Below, piece after piece: positions 23,297-30,249 of a stretch of 43,017 nucleotides of DNA. Below the pieces are notes generated by a model that saw nothing but the letters and a program-made list of their open reading frames with translations, did no database searches and was not told where the DNA came from. The DNA comes from Chlorobiota bacterium (lineage in GTDB: Bacteria; Bacteroidota; Bacteroidia; Bacteroidales; Prolixibacteraceae). A program made the translations under genes and the position numbers. The stretch's first letter is position 1, and every line of letters begins with the position of its first letter. Where the stretch lies: NCBI GenBank assembly GCA_013152355.1, contig JAADGO010000012.1:1-43017 (forward strand), in the 5' to 3' direction.

Positions 23297-23327
23297 TTGT
23301 TTTTGAAAAAAAAAATTTCTTCTTTTG
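23297..23327 (+). promoter_or_regulatory. Candidate trp operon promoter
   Basis: TTG (23297-23299), 20-nt spacer, TTCTTTTG (23320-23327), 7/8 to TAnnTTTG; 17 bp upstream of the first leader ATG. Confidence 0.4.
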
Positions 23328-23344: not shown

Positions 23345-23398
23345 ATGGTGAAACAAAAAAATACAATATGGCTTCCGTGGTGGGGTCTTCTGACTTAA
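23345..23398 (+). CDS. Trp leader peptide 1, MVKQKNTIWLPWWGLLT
   Basis: 17-codon ORF with three TGG codons (W9, W12, W13), followed by alternative RNA structures and a terminator upstream of trpE. Confidence 0.8.
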   Translation: MVKQKNTIWLPWWGLLT

Positions 23399-23475
23399 AA
23401 CAGTGAGAAGTAACAGCCATATTGTGATTTTTTAAAGATAACATAGGCCTGCTTCTCATAAAAGCAGGTTTTTTT
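23363..23475 (+). promoter_or_regulatory. Attenuator 1: alternative hairpins and intrinsic terminator
   Basis: 1:2 ACAATATGGCT (23363-23373) with AGCCATATTGT (23415-23425). Antiterminator TGAGAAG (23404-23410) with CTTCTCA (23452-23458), extendable with G-U pairs. Terminator CCTGCTT (23448-23454) with AAGCAGG (23462-23468) plus T7. Confidence 0.8.
23448..23475 (+). terminator. Intrinsic terminator of attenuator 1
   Basis: CCTGCTT-ctcataa-AAGCAGG-TTTTTTT. Confidence 0.85.
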
Positions 23476-23489
23476 ATTTTTTAATAAGT

Positions 23490-23549
23490 ATGAAACGATT
23501 TGAATTAAATAATTGGTGGTGGCGCATAATCTTCTCACAAAAACCGTGA
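23490..23549 (+). CDS. Trp leader peptide 2, MKRFELNNWWWRIIFSQKP
   Basis: 19-codon ORF with three consecutive TGG codons (23514-23522), followed by a strong terminator upstream of trpE. Confidence 0.82.
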   Translation: MKRFELNNWWWRIIFSQKP

Positions 23550-23576
23550 AGAGGCACTACGTTATATATTTATAAC

Positions 23577-23613
23577 AAAAAAAGGCTTATCGTAACACGG
23601 TAAGCCTTTTTTT
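23577..23613 (+). terminator. Intrinsic terminator of attenuator 2
   Basis: AAAAAAAGGCTTATCG-TAACA-CGGTAAGCCTTTTTTT, 16-bp stem with one G-U pair and a T-tract. Confidence 0.88.
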
Positions 23614-23668: not shown

Positions 23669-25078
23669 ATGGAAATTTTACATTTCAAACCGGTAGTCAG
23701 GAAGATATTAGCAGATACGGTTACACCTGTAAGTATCTACTTAAGGCTACGCAACCTCTACCCAAAATCCCTTTTATTGGAGAGCTCAGATTACCACGGG
23801 CAAGAGAATGCCTATTCATTCATTTGTTTTAACCCGATTGCCTGTTTTACGGCAAATGAAGGGAAGGTTGTTTACGAACTGCCTGGTAATCAGCCCCAGA
23901 AAGTGGCAATCACCAAAGAGAGGCCTTTACATTCGGAACTCGACCGGTTTTTCAAGATATTCGATGTGGATGATTCGGAGATCGAATTGCCTGCAAACGG
24001 TTTATTTGGTTACATCAACTACGATGCAATCCAATACTTTGAGAAGATAAGCCTTGGGGCAACCAAGAAAGAAGGCTACCAGATCCCCGATGTAAAATAT
24101 TGCTTTTATAAGTACATAGTCGCCATCGACCACCATAAAAACATTATCCATATAATCGAGAACCTGCTGGACGATGAAAAGTCTCAGATCGACTATATCC
24201 ACCACCTGTTGGTCAACCTGAATTTTTCAACATCGGGCTTTGCCACAAAAGGAGACGAGATTTCGAATATTACCGATGACGATTACAAATACATGGTAGC
24301 CAAAGGCAAAGAGCATTGCTTCAGGGGCGATGTTTTCCAGGTAGTCCTTTCCCGCCAGTATTCACATGAGTTTGAAGGCGATGATTTTAATGTTTACCGT
24401 GCGCTCAGGTCGATAAATCCTTCGCCTTACCTTTTTTATTTCGATTATGGCGATTACCGTATCTTCGGTTCCAGCCCCGAGGCCCAGATCAGGATTAAAG
24501 GGGGCAAAGCATACATACATCCGATTGCCGGCACATTTAAACGCACAGGCAACGATGAACAAGACAAAGAACTGGCAAAGCAATTGAGCAAAGACCCGAA
24601 AGAAAATGCAGAGCATGTAATGCTGGTCGACCTTGCCCGGAACGACCTCAGCCGTAATGCCAGCCATGTAACTGTTGAAACCTACCGTGAGGTGCAATTC
24701 TTTTCACATGTTATCCATTTGGTATCGCAGGTTTCCGGGCAGTTGCCCGAAGATGCCAACCTTGTAAAAGTGCTGGGAGAGTCTTTCCCGGCAGGGACAC
24801 TCTCCGGTGCGCCAAAACACAGGGCAATGCAGCTGATCGATACCTACGAAAACCAAAACCGTGGATATTATGGCGGCTGTATTGGTTACATGGGGTTCAA
24901 CCGTACGCTAAACCATGCCATTATGATCCGTTCATTCTTAAGTAAAAACAACAAGTTGTTTTACCAGGCAGGAGCCGGTATTGTTGCTGAATCAAAAGAA
25001 GAAAACGAATTACAGGAGGTAAATAATAAACTGGCAGCACTGAAAAAAGCCATTGAAATGGCAAAAGAGATTAAATAG
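23669..25078 (+). CDS. trpE: Anthranilate synthase component I
   Basis: LLESSDYHGQENAYSFI, FQVVLSRQYSHEF, SPYLFYFDYGDYRIFGSSPEAQIRI, PIAGTFKRTGNDEQD, FPAGTLSGAPKHRAMQLI. Confidence 0.96.
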   Translation: MEILHFKPVVRKILADTVTPVSIYLRLRNLYPKSLLLESSDYHGQENAYSFICFNPIACFTANEGKVVYELPGNQPQKVAITKERPLHSELDRFFKIFDVDDSEIELPANGLFGYINYDAIQYFEKISLGATKKEGYQIPDVKYCFYKYIVAIDHHKNIIHIIENLLDDEKSQIDYIHHLLVNLNFSTSGFATKGDEISNITDDDYKYMVAKGKEHCFRGDVFQVVLSRQYSHEFEGDDFNVYRALRSINPSPYLFYFDYGDYRIFGSSPEAQIRIKGGKAYIHPIAGTFKRTGNDEQDKELAKQLSKDPKENAEHVMLVDLARNDLSRNASHVTVETYREVQFFSHVIHLVSQVSGQLPEDANLVKVLGESFPAGTLSGAPKHRAMQLIDTYENQNRGYYGGCIGYMGFNRTLNHAIMIRSFLSKNNKLFYQAGAGIVAESKEENELQEVNNKLAALKKAIEMAKEIK

Positions 25079-25114: not shown

Positions 25115-25684
25115 ATGAAAATAATAGTTATAGATAATTATGATTCATTTACCTACAACCTGGTTCATGCCATTAAAAAAATTGCAAAATTGCCGGTAGT
25201 AGTTTCCAGGAATGATGAAATTAAAATGGAGGAGCTGGAAAGTTTTGACAAGATTGTCCTTTCTCCGGGGCCTGGCATTCCGTCCGAAGCCGGCCTTCTG
25301 ATGGACATCATCAAAGAGTTTGCCCCTAAAAAAAGTATTCTCGGAGTATGCCTGGGGCATCAGGCTATCGGCGAAGTGTTTGGCGGGCAGATTCTGAACA
25401 TGAATAAAGTACTGCATGGTATTGCCACCCCCGTAACCGTAACCAGCAGGAATACTTGCTTATTTAACAAAATTCCTGATACTTTTGACGCCGGGAGGTA
25501 CCATTCGTGGATTGTTGAAAGAAAAGGGCTGCCGGATTGCTTCGAAATCACCAGCCTCGACAATGTAGGAGAGATTATGTCGATTATGCACAAAGAGTTC
25601 GATGTACAGGGAGTACAATTCCACCCCGAATCGGTATTGACCCCTTACGGAGAACAGATGATAAAAAACTGGCTAAATAATTAA
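25115..25684 (+). CDS. trpG: Anthranilate synthase component II (glutamine amidotransferase)
   Basis: VIDNYDSFTYNLVH, LSPGPGIP, ILGVCLGHQAIGEVFGG, GVQFHPESVLT. Confidence 0.96.
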   Translation: MKIIVIDNYDSFTYNLVHAIKKIAKLPVVVSRNDEIKMEELESFDKIVLSPGPGIPSEAGLLMDIIKEFAPKKSILGVCLGHQAIGEVFGGQILNMNKVLHGIATPVTVTSRNTCLFNKIPDTFDAGRYHSWIVERKGLPDCFEITSLDNVGEIMSIMHKEFDVQGVQFHPESVLTPYGEQMIKNWLNN

Positions 25685-25694
25685 AGAAAAAGAG

Positions 25695-26681
25695 ATGAAA
25701 GAAGTTCTTACATATTTATTTTCAGGCAATAAGCTAAGCCGCGAAAAAGCAAAAGAAGTATTGTTTGAGGTGGGGCAGGGACGTCACTCCGAGGCAGAGT
25801 TTGCTTCGTTGCTAACCGTTTATTTAATGCGCCCGGTCACGTCTGACGAGTTGGCGGGTTTCCGTGATGCCATGCTCGATTTATGCCTTTTCACCGACCT
25901 GTCGGGATACAATGCCATTGACGTAGTAGGTACGGGCGGCGATGGGAAAAATACATTTAATATTTCTACACTTGCTGCATTTGTTATTGCCGGAGCAGGG
26001 TTTAAGGTGGCAAAACACGGTAATTATGCCATCTCTTCCAATTGCGGTTCTTCCAATGTTTTGGAACACCTGGGTTACCAATTCAGCAACGACACAGTGA
26101 AATTGAAAAGCGAACTGGATTCTGCCGGGATTTGTTTCCTACACGCCCCGCTTTTCCATCCGGCGATGAAACATATTGCCCCTGTGAGGCGGGCGTTGAA
26201 GGTAAAGACATTCTTCAATATCCTGGGGCCGATGGTAAACCCGTCCTTCCCAAAATATCAGCTTTTGGGGGTTTATAACCTTGATGTATTTGATCTTTAC
26301 AAAGAAGTATATAAATCATCCGACATAAGTTATTACATCATCAACAGCCTGGATGGGTACGATGAAGTCTCACTCACCAACGGGATACGATATGTTTCAA
26401 ACAATTCGGAAGGAGTTCTTCACCCATCCGATTTTGGTTTTGACAGGGTAAAACCTGAAGAACTGTTTGGCGGAGATAATGTTGAAGAAGCAGCCAAAGT
26501 GTTTACAGGTATTTTAAAAAGGGAAGGAACAACTCCTCAGAACAATGTTGTAATTGCTAACGCAGCCCTCGGGCTAAAGTCTATCCTGCCTGAAAAAGGG
26601 TTGTTGGAGTGCGTTGAGATTGCAAATGATTCATTAAAGAGTGGCAAAGCATTTCAGGCATTTCAAAAGTTAATCGCTTAA
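25695..26681 (+). CDS. trpD: Anthranilate phosphoribosyltransferase
   Basis: DVVGTGGDGKNTFNISTLAAFV, KHGNYAISSNCGSSNVLEHLG, FHPAMKHIAPVRRALKVKTFFNILGPMVNP. Confidence 0.96.
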   Translation: MKEVLTYLFSGNKLSREKAKEVLFEVGQGRHSEAEFASLLTVYLMRPVTSDELAGFRDAMLDLCLFTDLSGYNAIDVVGTGGDGKNTFNISTLAAFVIAGAGFKVAKHGNYAISSNCGSSNVLEHLGYQFSNDTVKLKSELDSAGICFLHAPLFHPAMKHIAPVRRALKVKTFFNILGPMVNPSFPKYQLLGVYNLDVFDLYKEVYKSSDISYYIINSLDGYDEVSLTNGIRYVSNNSEGVLHPSDFGFDRVKPEELFGGDNVEEAAKVFTGILKREGTTPQNNVVIANAALGLKSILPEKGLLECVEIANDSLKSGKAFQAFQKLIA

Positions 26682-26683
26682 TT

Positions 26684-27478
26684 ATGGCAATACTTGATAA
26701 AATAATAGAGACAAAAAGAGTCGAGGTCAAAAACCTGAAAAAAATAACATCAATCCGGGAACTGTGCCAGATACCTATGTATAGCCGAAGGTGCAACTCG
26801 CTGGTTAAAAGCCTGTTGTCTTCAAATGCTTCCGGGATTATTGCCGAGTTCAAACAAAAATCACCATCAAAAGGAGTAATTAATGAATCTGGCTTTGTGG
26901 AAGAGGTTACCAAAGGCTATGTTGCTGCCGGAGCTTCGGGGTTGTCAGTATTAACCGATTTTGAATATTTTGGAGGTAACATGGTTAACCTGGTGAAAGC
27001 CCGTGAGGCTAATCCCGGCACTCCCCTGCTCAGGAAAGATTTTATGGTCGACCCAATACAAATTTATGAAGCGAAAGCCTATGGTGCAGATGTGATTTTG
27101 CTCATTGCCGCCTGCCTCGAAAGTAACCAGTTGAAGGAGTTGGCTCAAACCGCCAAAGAAATTGGGCTGGAAGTATTGGTTGAGGTACATAATGAACAAG
27201 AGCTGGGAAAAATTGAAGGCAAAGTTGACCTGATAGGTGTTAACAACCGTAACCTGAAAACATTTGAGGTGGATATTGAAACGTCTATCAGATTAAGTAC
27301 CCTGATTCCTGAAAGTGTCGTGAAAATCTCGGAAAGTGGATTATCCGAAGCAAAAAGCATAGTACACCTTCGGGAGAATGGCTTTGATGGGTTTTTAATT
27401 GGCGAAACCTTTATGAAAACAAGCAACCCGGCAAAAGCCTGTAATGAGTTTATTTCAGAGGTAAAAAAAATATATTAA
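26684..27478 (+). CDS. trpC: Indole-3-glycerol phosphate synthase
   Basis: IIAEFKQKSPSKGVI, LSVLTDFEYFGG, LLRKDFMVDPIQIYEAKAYGADVILLIAA, IGVNNRNLKTFEVD, ISESGL. Confidence 0.96.
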   Translation: MAILDKIIETKRVEVKNLKKITSIRELCQIPMYSRRCNSLVKSLLSSNASGIIAEFKQKSPSKGVINESGFVEEVTKGYVAAGASGLSVLTDFEYFGGNMVNLVKAREANPGTPLLRKDFMVDPIQIYEAKAYGADVILLIAACLESNQLKELAQTAKEIGLEVLVEVHNEQELGKIEGKVDLIGVNNRNLKTFEVDIETSIRLSTLIPESVVKISESGLSEAKSIVHLRENGFDGFLIGETFMKTSNPAKACNEFISEVKKIY

Positions 27479-27547: not shown

Positions 27548-28183
27548 ATGAAAAAAGAACTTAAAATAAAAGTATGCGGGATGAAGTTCCCCGATAATAT
27601 GGCAGCTGTTTCAACACTGCCTGTCGATATGCTGGGATTCATCTTTTACCCTCCATCAAAAAGGTATATTGGGAATATATTGCCCAAAGAAGGAGTCCGG
27701 CTGTTCAATACATCAAAAGAAAAGGTTGGGGTATTTGTAAATGAAAAGAGTGAGGTTATAATATCTTTTATTAAAAAGTTCAGGCTTAATTCCATTCAGT
27801 TGCATGGTGATGAAAGCCCTGAGTATTGCAGGCAATTAAAATCAACAGGAATAAAGGCTGTCAAAGCTTTCCGGGTAAACGAAACATTCGACTTCGAAAC
27901 AACATCGGCATACCTCAATACCGTTGACCTGTTTTTATTTGACACAAAAGCTGAACAACCGGGAGGTACCGGGGAAAAATTTGATTGGCAGGTACTGGAA
28001 AATTATCATTATTCCACCCCCTTTTTGCTCAGCGGGGGGATACAACCCGAAGATACCGGTGAAATAAAACAGATTAGCCACCCAATGCTATACGGTGTTG
28101 ACCTGAACAGTGGCTTTGAAGATGAGCCGGGTTTGAAGAATATAGGGAAATTAGAAGCATTTATAAAAATATTAAAACAATAA
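27548..28183 (+). CDS. trpF: Phosphoribosylanthranilate isomerase
   Basis: [68 protein letters not shown]. Confidence 0.94.
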
Positions 28184-28187
28184 AAAC

Positions 28188-29369
28188 GTGGACTACCAGG
28201 TAGATGAGAAAGGATATTACGGAGAATTCGGAGGGGCATGGATTCCTGAGATGATGTATTCGAATATCGAAGAATTACGTAAACGATACCTTGAGATCAT
28301 TTATTCTTCGAAATTCCAGGAGGAATTCACCAGCCTCCTGAAGAATTATGTCGGCAGGCCCTCTCCACTTTATTTTGCGAAGCGTTTGTCAGCGCATTAT
28401 GGCACAGATATATACCTGAAACGTGAAGACCTTAACCACACAGGGTCGCATAAACTGAACAACACCATCGGGCAGATTTTATTGGCCGAGAAGCTGGGTA
28501 AAACCCGTATTATTGCTGAAACCGGGGCCGGGCAGCATGGAGTAGCCACTGCAACCGTATGTGCCCTGAAAGGAATAAAATGCGTGGTTTACATGGGGGC
28601 TCTTGATGTGGGGCGGCAGGCTCCGAATGTAAAAAAAATGAAGATGCTGGGGGCTGAGGTTGTCCCTGTTTACAGTGGGAATAAAACACTGAAAGATGCC
28701 ACCAACGAAGCTATGCGCGACTGGATCAACAACCCGGTTGATACGCATTATATTATTGGCTCGGTGGTAGGGCCGCATCCATACCCTGACATGGTTGCGC
28801 GTTTCCAGGCAATTATCAGCGAAGAGATAAAATGGCAATTGGATGAACAAACGGGCAATGAACTGCCAACCCGGATTTTGGCCTGTGTAGGTGGGGGAAG
28901 CAATGCAGCAGGTGCATTTTATCATTTCCTGGAAGACCGGGAAGTGGAACTGATCGGTGTGGAAGCTGCCGGGAAAGGAATCGACACCAATGAAACTGCT
29001 GCTACGTTAACAGTTGGTTCGCCGGGAGTGCTGCATGCCAGCAAAACCATGTTGATGCAAAATGCCGATGGGCAAATTACCGAACCATATTCTATTTCGG
29101 CAGGGCTCGATTACCCGGGGATAGGGCCAATGCATGCCCACCTGTTTAAAACGGGCAGGGCAAAATACCTTTATGCTACCGACAAGGAGGTTTTAACAGC
29201 AGCCCTTCTTATTACGCAAAAAGAGGGGATTATCCCGGCCCTGGAATCGGCACATGCTCTGGCAGCACTGGAAAAGGCCGAATTTGCAAAAGATGATGTA
29301 ACAGTCGTCAACCTGTCGGGCAGGGGAGATAAGGACATGGAGACGTATTTAAATTATTTTGGGTACTGA
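28188..29369 (+). CDS. trpB: Tryptophan synthase beta chain (GTG start)
   Basis: [66 protein letters not shown]. Confidence 0.97.
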
Positions 29370-29472
29370 TGTGTGGGAAGATTGCTCCTCCACCAGGTTG
29401 CCAAAACGGATGCCACCATGCCATACCAAAAGAATTATGGCTGAGGTATCTTCAATTTTAAAGAAAAACACT

Positions 29473-30249
29473 ATGAATAATAGGATTAACCAACTCTTTG
29501 CAGCAAAAAAAGAAAATATATTATCGGTATATTTTACAGCCGGATACCCCAAATTGAACGATACGGGAAGCATTATTTATGAACTGGAAAAATCAGGAGC
29601 CGACCTGGTCGAAGTAGGTATCCCCTTCTCAGACCCGACCGCCGATGGCCCGGTTATCCAGCAAAGCAGCCATAAGGCACTGGAAAACGGCATGACCCTG
29701 AACTTGCTGTTTGAGCAACTGGCAGGCATCCGTGAGAAAGTATCCATTCCGCTTATTTTAATGGGGTACTTCAACCCGGTTTACCAATTTGGAGTAAAGG
29801 AGTTTTGTGAAAAATGCAATGAAACCGGCATTGACGGAGCTATCCTCCCCGACCTGCCCCTCGATGAGTACCTGGAAAACTACCAGCCTTTTTTCGAAAA
29901 AAACAACCTGCATAATATACTACTTATCACACCACAAACATCAGATAGCCGGATCAGGCAGGTAGATGCGGCCTCTACCGGGTTTATTTATATGGTTTCA
30001 TCGTCATCTACCACCGGGAAGAACCAGAAAGTGGAGGACTTCCATCAGGATTACTTCGAGAGGGTAAATAAGCTGAACTTAAAGAATCCACGATTAATCG
30101 GCTTTGGGATTTCGGATAAAGCAACCTTTAATAATGCCTGTAAATATGCAAGCGGGGCAATTATCGGGACTGCTTTTATTAAATCTTTTAACAAAAAAGA
30201 ACCTGTTACTGAAAGCATCCCAAAATTTATAAAGAGTATTATTGGATAA
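29473..30249 (+). CDS. trpA: Tryptophan synthase alpha chain
   Basis: YFTAGYPKLNDT, LVEVGIPFSDPTADGPVIQQSSHKAL, LMGYFNPVYQFG, ILPDLPLDEY; internal ATG at 29473 is the likely start. Confidence 0.95.
   Translation: MNNRINQLFAAKKENILSVYFTAGYPKLNDTGSIIYELEKSGADLVEVGIPFSDPTADGPVIQQSSHKALENGMTLNLLFEQLAGIREKVSIPLILMGYFNPVYQFGVKEFCEKCNETGIDGAILPDLPLDEYLENYQPFFEKNNLHNILLITPQTSDSRIRQVDAASTGFIYMVSSSSTTGKNQKVEDFHQDYFERVNKLNLKNPRLIGFGISDKATFNNACKYASGAIIGTAFIKSFNKKEPVTESIPKFIKSIIG

Follow-up and report, generated by a model that had tools for sequence, protein, structure and literature searches.

Two predicted tryptophan leader-peptide attenuators in series upstream of trpEGDCFBA in a Prolixibacteraceae bacterium

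Introduction

Two short, tryptophan-rich ORFs, each followed by an intrinsic terminator, lie in the 476-nt gap before trpE of a Prolixibacteraceae bacterium, which raises the question of what a second leader could contribute to control of a single operon. The DNA analyzed here (the window) is a stretch of 43,017 nucleotides, and all its features described below are on the forward strand. As the preliminary description had it, tryptophan pathway genes follow the gap; profile models and operon context identified them as trpE (23669..25078), trpG (25115..25684; TIGR00566), trpD (25695..26681; TIGR01245), trpC (26684..27478; NF001377), trpF (27548..28183; NF002298, 179 bits, below the cut-off of 215, but supported by operon context), trpB (28188..29369; TIGR00263), and trpA (29359..30249; TIGR00262). 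The trpE product scored 434.6 bits with TIGR00564, which is below the model cut-off (517.7) yet the top score among 26 chorismate-binding models. The Trp repressor TrpR (PF01371) was not detected in the host draft genome (98.4% complete).

Results

The distal leader ORF (ORF1, MVKQKNTIWLPWWGLLT; 23345..23398) contains three Trp codons (at 23369, 23378, and 23381), and the proximal one (ORF2, MKRFELNNWWWRIIFSQKP; 23490..23549) contains a WWW run (23514–23522). The two successive Trp-rich ORFs that had been noticed at the outset were thereby confirmed, by sequence, conservation, and shuffling. When the 476-nt gap was dinucleotide-shuffled, at least one short ORF with three or more Trp codons arose in 0.4% of cases and at least two in 0.03%, which rules out that the pair is there by chance. 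Each ORF also has its own terminator, as claimed. Terminator 1, with a T-tract (23445..23479), was found by terminator scan and is supported by folding and covariation. Terminator 2, likewise with a T-tract (23577..23613), was identified by folding; the simple scan missed it because its stem extends into the T-tract. Across Bacteroidota, compensatory changes were observed in 10 of its 11 consensus pairs. Both cassettes fold more stably than shuffled sequence, with z-scores of −4.4 for the distal and −5.4 for the proximal one. Thus, two features expected of an attenuator are present: leader ORFs with consecutive codons for the pathway amino acid, and intrinsic termination ahead of trpE. Upstream, a candidate Bacteroidota-type promoter (TTTTTG...TTCTTTTG; 23300..23327) was read by eye, judged against the Bacteroidota −33/−7 consensus; if used, the transcript would start ∼10–20 nt 5′ of ORF1.

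Between ORFs and terminators, both cassettes contain further pairings. In the distal one, folding and covariation support an outer stem whose 5′ arm (ACAATATGGCT; 23363..23373) overlaps the codons for Thr-Ile-Trp-Leu and whose 3′ arm (AGCCATATTGT) lies at 23415..23425. In the fold of the window, an inner hairpin (CTTCT...AGAAG; 23386..23410) sequesters the putative antiterminator strand E1 (GTGAGAAGTA; 23403..23412); this hairpin corresponds to helix 2 of the alignment, where 93% of cells are paired and three of six pairs changed on both sides. E1 is complementary to the upper 5′ arm and loop of terminator 1 (TGCTTCTCAT; 23450..23459), and the segment 23392–23460, when folded alone, adopts this distal antiterminator (−18.4 kcal/mol, z-score −4.2). 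In the proximal cassette, fold and sequence indicate an inner hairpin (CTTCTCAC : GTGAAGAG; 23531..23553) with the stop codon inside it. The putative strand E2 (ACCGTG, last codon plus stop; 23543..23548) is complementary to CACGGT in the loop and upper 3′ arm of terminator 2 (23596..23601).

If E is an antiterminator strand, it should match the terminator of the same species more closely than those of others. Pairing energies were, therefore, compared between own and other species with 2,000 permutations. Distal E paired with the terminator 5′ arm plus loop at a mean of −14.7 kcal/mol within and −11.7 kcal/mol between species, and none of the 2,000 permutations was as low; with the 3′ arm, the result was null (1,764 of 2,000 permutations). 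For proximal E, it was the loop plus 3′ arm that showed the preference (−10.8 versus −9.2 kcal/mol; 0 of 2,000), whereas pairing with the 5′ arm was null (228 of 2,000). These permutations ignore kinship between the species, to which the null result for the opposite arm in the same species, as an internal control, is a partial answer. Pairs of complementary words also swap together between lineages, for example, in the distal leader GTTAGGAG/CTTCTAAC, GTAAGGAG/CTTCTTAC, and GTGAGGAG/CTCCTCGA, and in the proximal leader TCGTGAA/TTCACGA, CCGCTGTGTA/TACACAGCGG, and ACCGAGAGTT/AACTCTCGGT, where compensation extends to other taxa. Words and own-versus-other tests were used for counting antiterminator pairs, rather than MAFFT columns, because the MAFFT alignments of the antiterminators were one base out of register in places. 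The complementarities show two antiterminator geometries: at the level of sequence, the distal strand would capture the 5′ arm of its terminator, the proximal strand the loop and 3′ arm.

How these strands might respond to translation was modeled by folding the leaders in three states (ribosome at the last Trp codon, ribosome at the stop codon, and ribosome-free), assuming a footprint of 13 nt past the A-site codon. For the distal leader (60 species), the expected number of pairs between E and the 5′ arm was 12.0 with the ribosome at the last Trp codon, 3.2 for free RNA, and 2.6 with the ribosome at the stop codon; the stalled state exceeded the stop state in 60 of 60 species. The corresponding numbers of antiterminator pairs for 157 proximal leaders were 6.75, 0.98, and 0.07, with stall above stop in 153. 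In the window itself, the full-length distal leader is predicted to retain 0.27 terminator pairs with a stalled ribosome, compared with 9.2 when free. In the full-length proximal leader, the modeled terminator beats the antiterminator in every ribosome state. Since the antiterminator is less stable than the completed terminator, the proximal switch needs a kinetic argument. In the model, the distal switch is thus sound at equilibrium, and its proximal counterpart depends on the order of folding; an antiterminator that excludes the terminator can be drawn for both leaders, for the proximal one only given that argument.

Taken together, the window very probably holds two ribosome-mediated transcription attenuators in series before trpEGDCFBA, both sensing charged tRNA-Trp; this reading draws on sequence comparison and folding models. 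In each leader, a ribosome following RNA polymerase would translate the short Trp-rich ORF. When charged tRNA-Trp is scarce, it would stall on the Trp codons and mask the strand that sequesters E, and E, so freed, could pair with the terminator sequence and let polymerase continue. When tryptophan is plentiful, the ribosome would reach the stop codon, on or beside E, and the blocked E would permit the terminator to form. Distal E would seize the 5′ arm of the terminator ahead of synthesis of the 3′ arm; proximal E would seize the loop and upper 3′ arm and work through folding order. RNA polymerase would, thus, probably have to pass two tryptophan checks consecutively and, because both switches must be passed by one RNA, readthrough should approximate the product of the two. 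Such serial checkpoints might, as first suggested, make the response to charged tRNA-Trp sharper or broader in range. The initial proposal of ribosome-mediated attenuation with a Trp leader peptide gains support from the conserved Trp codons, the in-frame ATG and stop codons, the covarying terminators, and the species-specific pairing.

Absence of conservation in relatives had been named at the outset as an argument against this proposal. A search for TrpE covered 199 genomes around the host; the upstream DNA was read for 110 of them, in addition to 80 named genomes. Comparison of the gap in these Bacteroidota revealed Trp runs and covarying stems, and the objection falls, as the family has conserved both leaders. 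The nearest named relatives belong to the Prolixibacteraceae (Maribellus, Draconibacterium, Mariniphaga, Tangfeifania, Sunxiuqinia, and Prolixibacter), most of which encode a distal leader with N-T-I-W-L-P-W-W-G-L-L and a proximal leader with W-W-W-x-x-N-F-x-Q. Other Bacteroidota usually have one leader; in Flavobacteriaceae and Chitinophaga, it is of the W-run type. A covariance model built from the distal cassette matched before trpE throughout the family, but gave no strong match elsewhere among 396 genomes across the phylum (best E-value outside the window genome, 2e-4).

The near-invariance of the distal peptide calls to mind another type of leader. TnaC is a peptide with fixed residues, of which W-x-P-W-W in the distal peptide is reminiscent, and free tryptophan together with the nascent peptide (IWLPWWGLL) could stall the ribosome instead of a shortage of charged tRNA-Trp. 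Stalling at tryptophan excess with antitermination would, however, have the wrong sign for biosynthetic genes, neither the proline nor the spacing is constant across tandem relatives (IWLWWG occurs), and the RNA stems account for the conservation of the peptide; we consider such a mechanism extremely improbable.

When leader states were mapped onto a TrpE tree of 110 rows, which has many weak forks, all distal elements fell within one Prolixibacteraceae clade of 81 rows. States were scored by pattern, except that L030, in which the proximal region is unsequenced, was set to tandem by hand; for L078, the proximal leader is ambiguous. A distal element was present in 77 of 77 assignable rows of the clade (62 with its terminator, 14 without, and one distal-only), four rows not being assignable. 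One locus, L231, was scored by the script as lacking the distal terminator, which is visible on reading. Rows outside the clade were scored single-leader, but L085, from another family of the order, has on inspection two W-W-W leaders before trpE with a terminator after each (L085:1480-1900, minus strand). Because this tandem is independent, tandem leaders arose at least twice. In L012, a nucleotidyltransferase and HepT-like gene pair (PF18765 and PF01934) lies between the distal and proximal leaders, and L005 carries a similar insert; the W-to-W spacing in both is, therefore, ∼760 nt.

That the proximal type by itself suffices in most other Bacteroidota, and that the distal terminator is absent in 14 relatives, could mean that regulation is left to the proximal leader alone, with the distal one being a duplicate in decay. 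Yet the distal cassette is more conserved in sequence than the proximal one and shows compensatory changes in antiterminator and terminator, and the only leader of one relative (G004; L035) is of the distal type. Decay is, thus, very improbable. The preliminary view of a doubled leader–terminator cassette holds in so far as most of the family has kept the arrangement; the two copies are not simple duplicates, as their antiterminator geometries differ and the core of the distal one outlasts its ORF and terminator.

This core was found in 14 fused variants upstream of trpE (L047, L053, L054, L056-L061, L069, L083, L084, L086, and L087), which keep it but lack both the distal terminator and an in-frame ATG within 15 codons. 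Their first Trp codon lies 92–98 nt from the proximal Trp run, ∼50 nt closer than the 140–150 nt of most tandem genomes. A proximal-only state of L053–L061 was ruled out when the covariance model revealed the fused distal element. The fused state requires at least three changes on the TrpE tree. Conversely, an in-frame ATG is present in all scored distal leaders that bear a terminator, and joint loss of ATG and terminator is what would be expected of a terminator that works through translation.

That the core persists where ORF start and terminator are gone is not accounted for by attenuation alone, and is a hint of some further role. Nine fused relatives share an identical 5′ core, ATAAATACAATATGGCTTCCGTGGTGGGG, and L047 has rebuilt its inner hairpin from different bases. 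In the tandem relatives, wobble positions of ORF1 are nearly invariant (AAT in 41 of 42, ACA in 42 of 42, CCG in 38 of 42, and GGT in 40 of 42). Conceivably, though we regard it as doubtful, attenuation is superimposed on a second function of the distal element that does not depend on translation, such as the binding of a protein or small molecule, or a programmed pause of polymerase. If so, lineages without start codon and terminator would retain that function only, upstream of the proximal leader. The unchanged core, the wobble positions, and the retention of the distal outer and inner stems would also suit an element that is mainly a structured RNA with a ligand or protein as its partner, resembling a riboswitch or serving as a pause element, with the Trp-rich ORF being secondary. 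This is improbable, as ATG and distal terminator go together in every scored case and are lost together, stem pairing inside the ORF accounts for part of the wobble invariance, and no known aptamer matched at Rfam thresholds.

Discussion

Two attenuators in series, thus, remain the preferred reading of the gap before trpE. The Bacteroid-trp leader (RF01692) is known as a single element (Table 1, PMC2864571; Weinberg et al, 2010) and has been reported before the trp operon of Flavobacterium psychrophilum (PMC6414381). Like it, the window has a W-run ORF in an outer stem, then a terminator, before trp genes of a member of the Bacteroidota, and both leaders align with it end to end. Unlike it, the window contains two copies in series, both scoring below the gathering cut-off of 49 bits (proximal, 41.9 bits, E-value 0.0013; distal, 25.9 bits, E-value 1.2). 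Leaders at the same site before trpE in some relatives (e.g., G024 and G035) pass this cut-off. The window leaders would, thus, work in the manner of Bacteroid-trp and are probably divergent, homologous relatives of it, but not members by the RF01692 threshold. Because the Rfam model ends within the 5′ arm of the terminator, the antiterminator pairings with either arm lie outside it.

With the Escherichia coli-type Trp leader (RF00513), the window shares the logic of regulatory Trp codons, a sequestering hairpin, and an antiterminator opposing a terminator. Sequence and stop-codon placement differ, E. coli has a single copy, and the best score was 23.1 bits against a cut-off of 41. The early comparison with E. 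coli trpL, therefore, stands for the attenuation logic but not for the type of element, which is RF01692 in divergent form. Tandem T-boxes precede trp operons in Bacillota as serial Trp switches (PMC12452182). They too are two RNA switches in series that sense tRNA-Trp charging for the same pathway; T-boxes, however, bind the tRNA directly, whereas the window would sense it via the translating ribosome, and the origin is independent. Neither a T-box nor any other Rfam family matched the window at gathering threshold. The serial attenuators of Salmonella mgtCBR respond to different signals, ATP and proline-tRNA (PMC3641672). Both systems combine two short ORFs and their attenuator structures within a single leader, but in the window both ORFs carry Trp codons.

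Some weak matches of the distal model at other loci in relatives were, on reading, leaders of other pathways; others resemble plain terminators. Upstream of ilvD in the host genome itself (L234) is a candidate branched-chain leader, MNLISNIILVVVVVILRNSGKG, with a terminator-like hairpin after it; a similar candidate, MKHISTYILVVVIVVLLGFC, lies before ilvD in L226. Cys-rich leader ORFs (MNFIKINMCCCYRSTQRRL and MCCWFLC) with terminators precede a cysteine synthase gene (L227:3113-3300 and L224:2032-2144, the latter on the minus strand); none was seen in the host's own copy of this locus (L232). In another family of the order, the leader MINNTNWWCLFFETKGM with a terminator lies upstream of a trpB-like ORF (L223:1897-2013, minus strand).

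The type of element and the single check are already known. In the open literature, outside of which most subscription journals lie, we found no paper on two Trp leader-peptide attenuators, or tandem Bacteroid-trp leaders, in series; the doubled layout and the two switch designs appear undescribed. What is new, as far as that search extends, is the serial arrangement, the two antiterminator geometries, and the fused variants with their nearly invariant RNA core. A series of two leader-peptide attenuators that answer to one amino acid would represent a ribosome-based, independently evolved counterpart to the tandem Trp T-boxes of Bacillota, and it would occur in a genome in which no Trp repressor was detected. 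The two geometries within one leader region, and a core that outlives its ORF and terminator, pose concrete questions of their own. Tandem, distal-only, and fused leaders, proximal-only ones outside the clade, and an independent tandem form a natural set in which it can be asked directly what a second attenuator adds.
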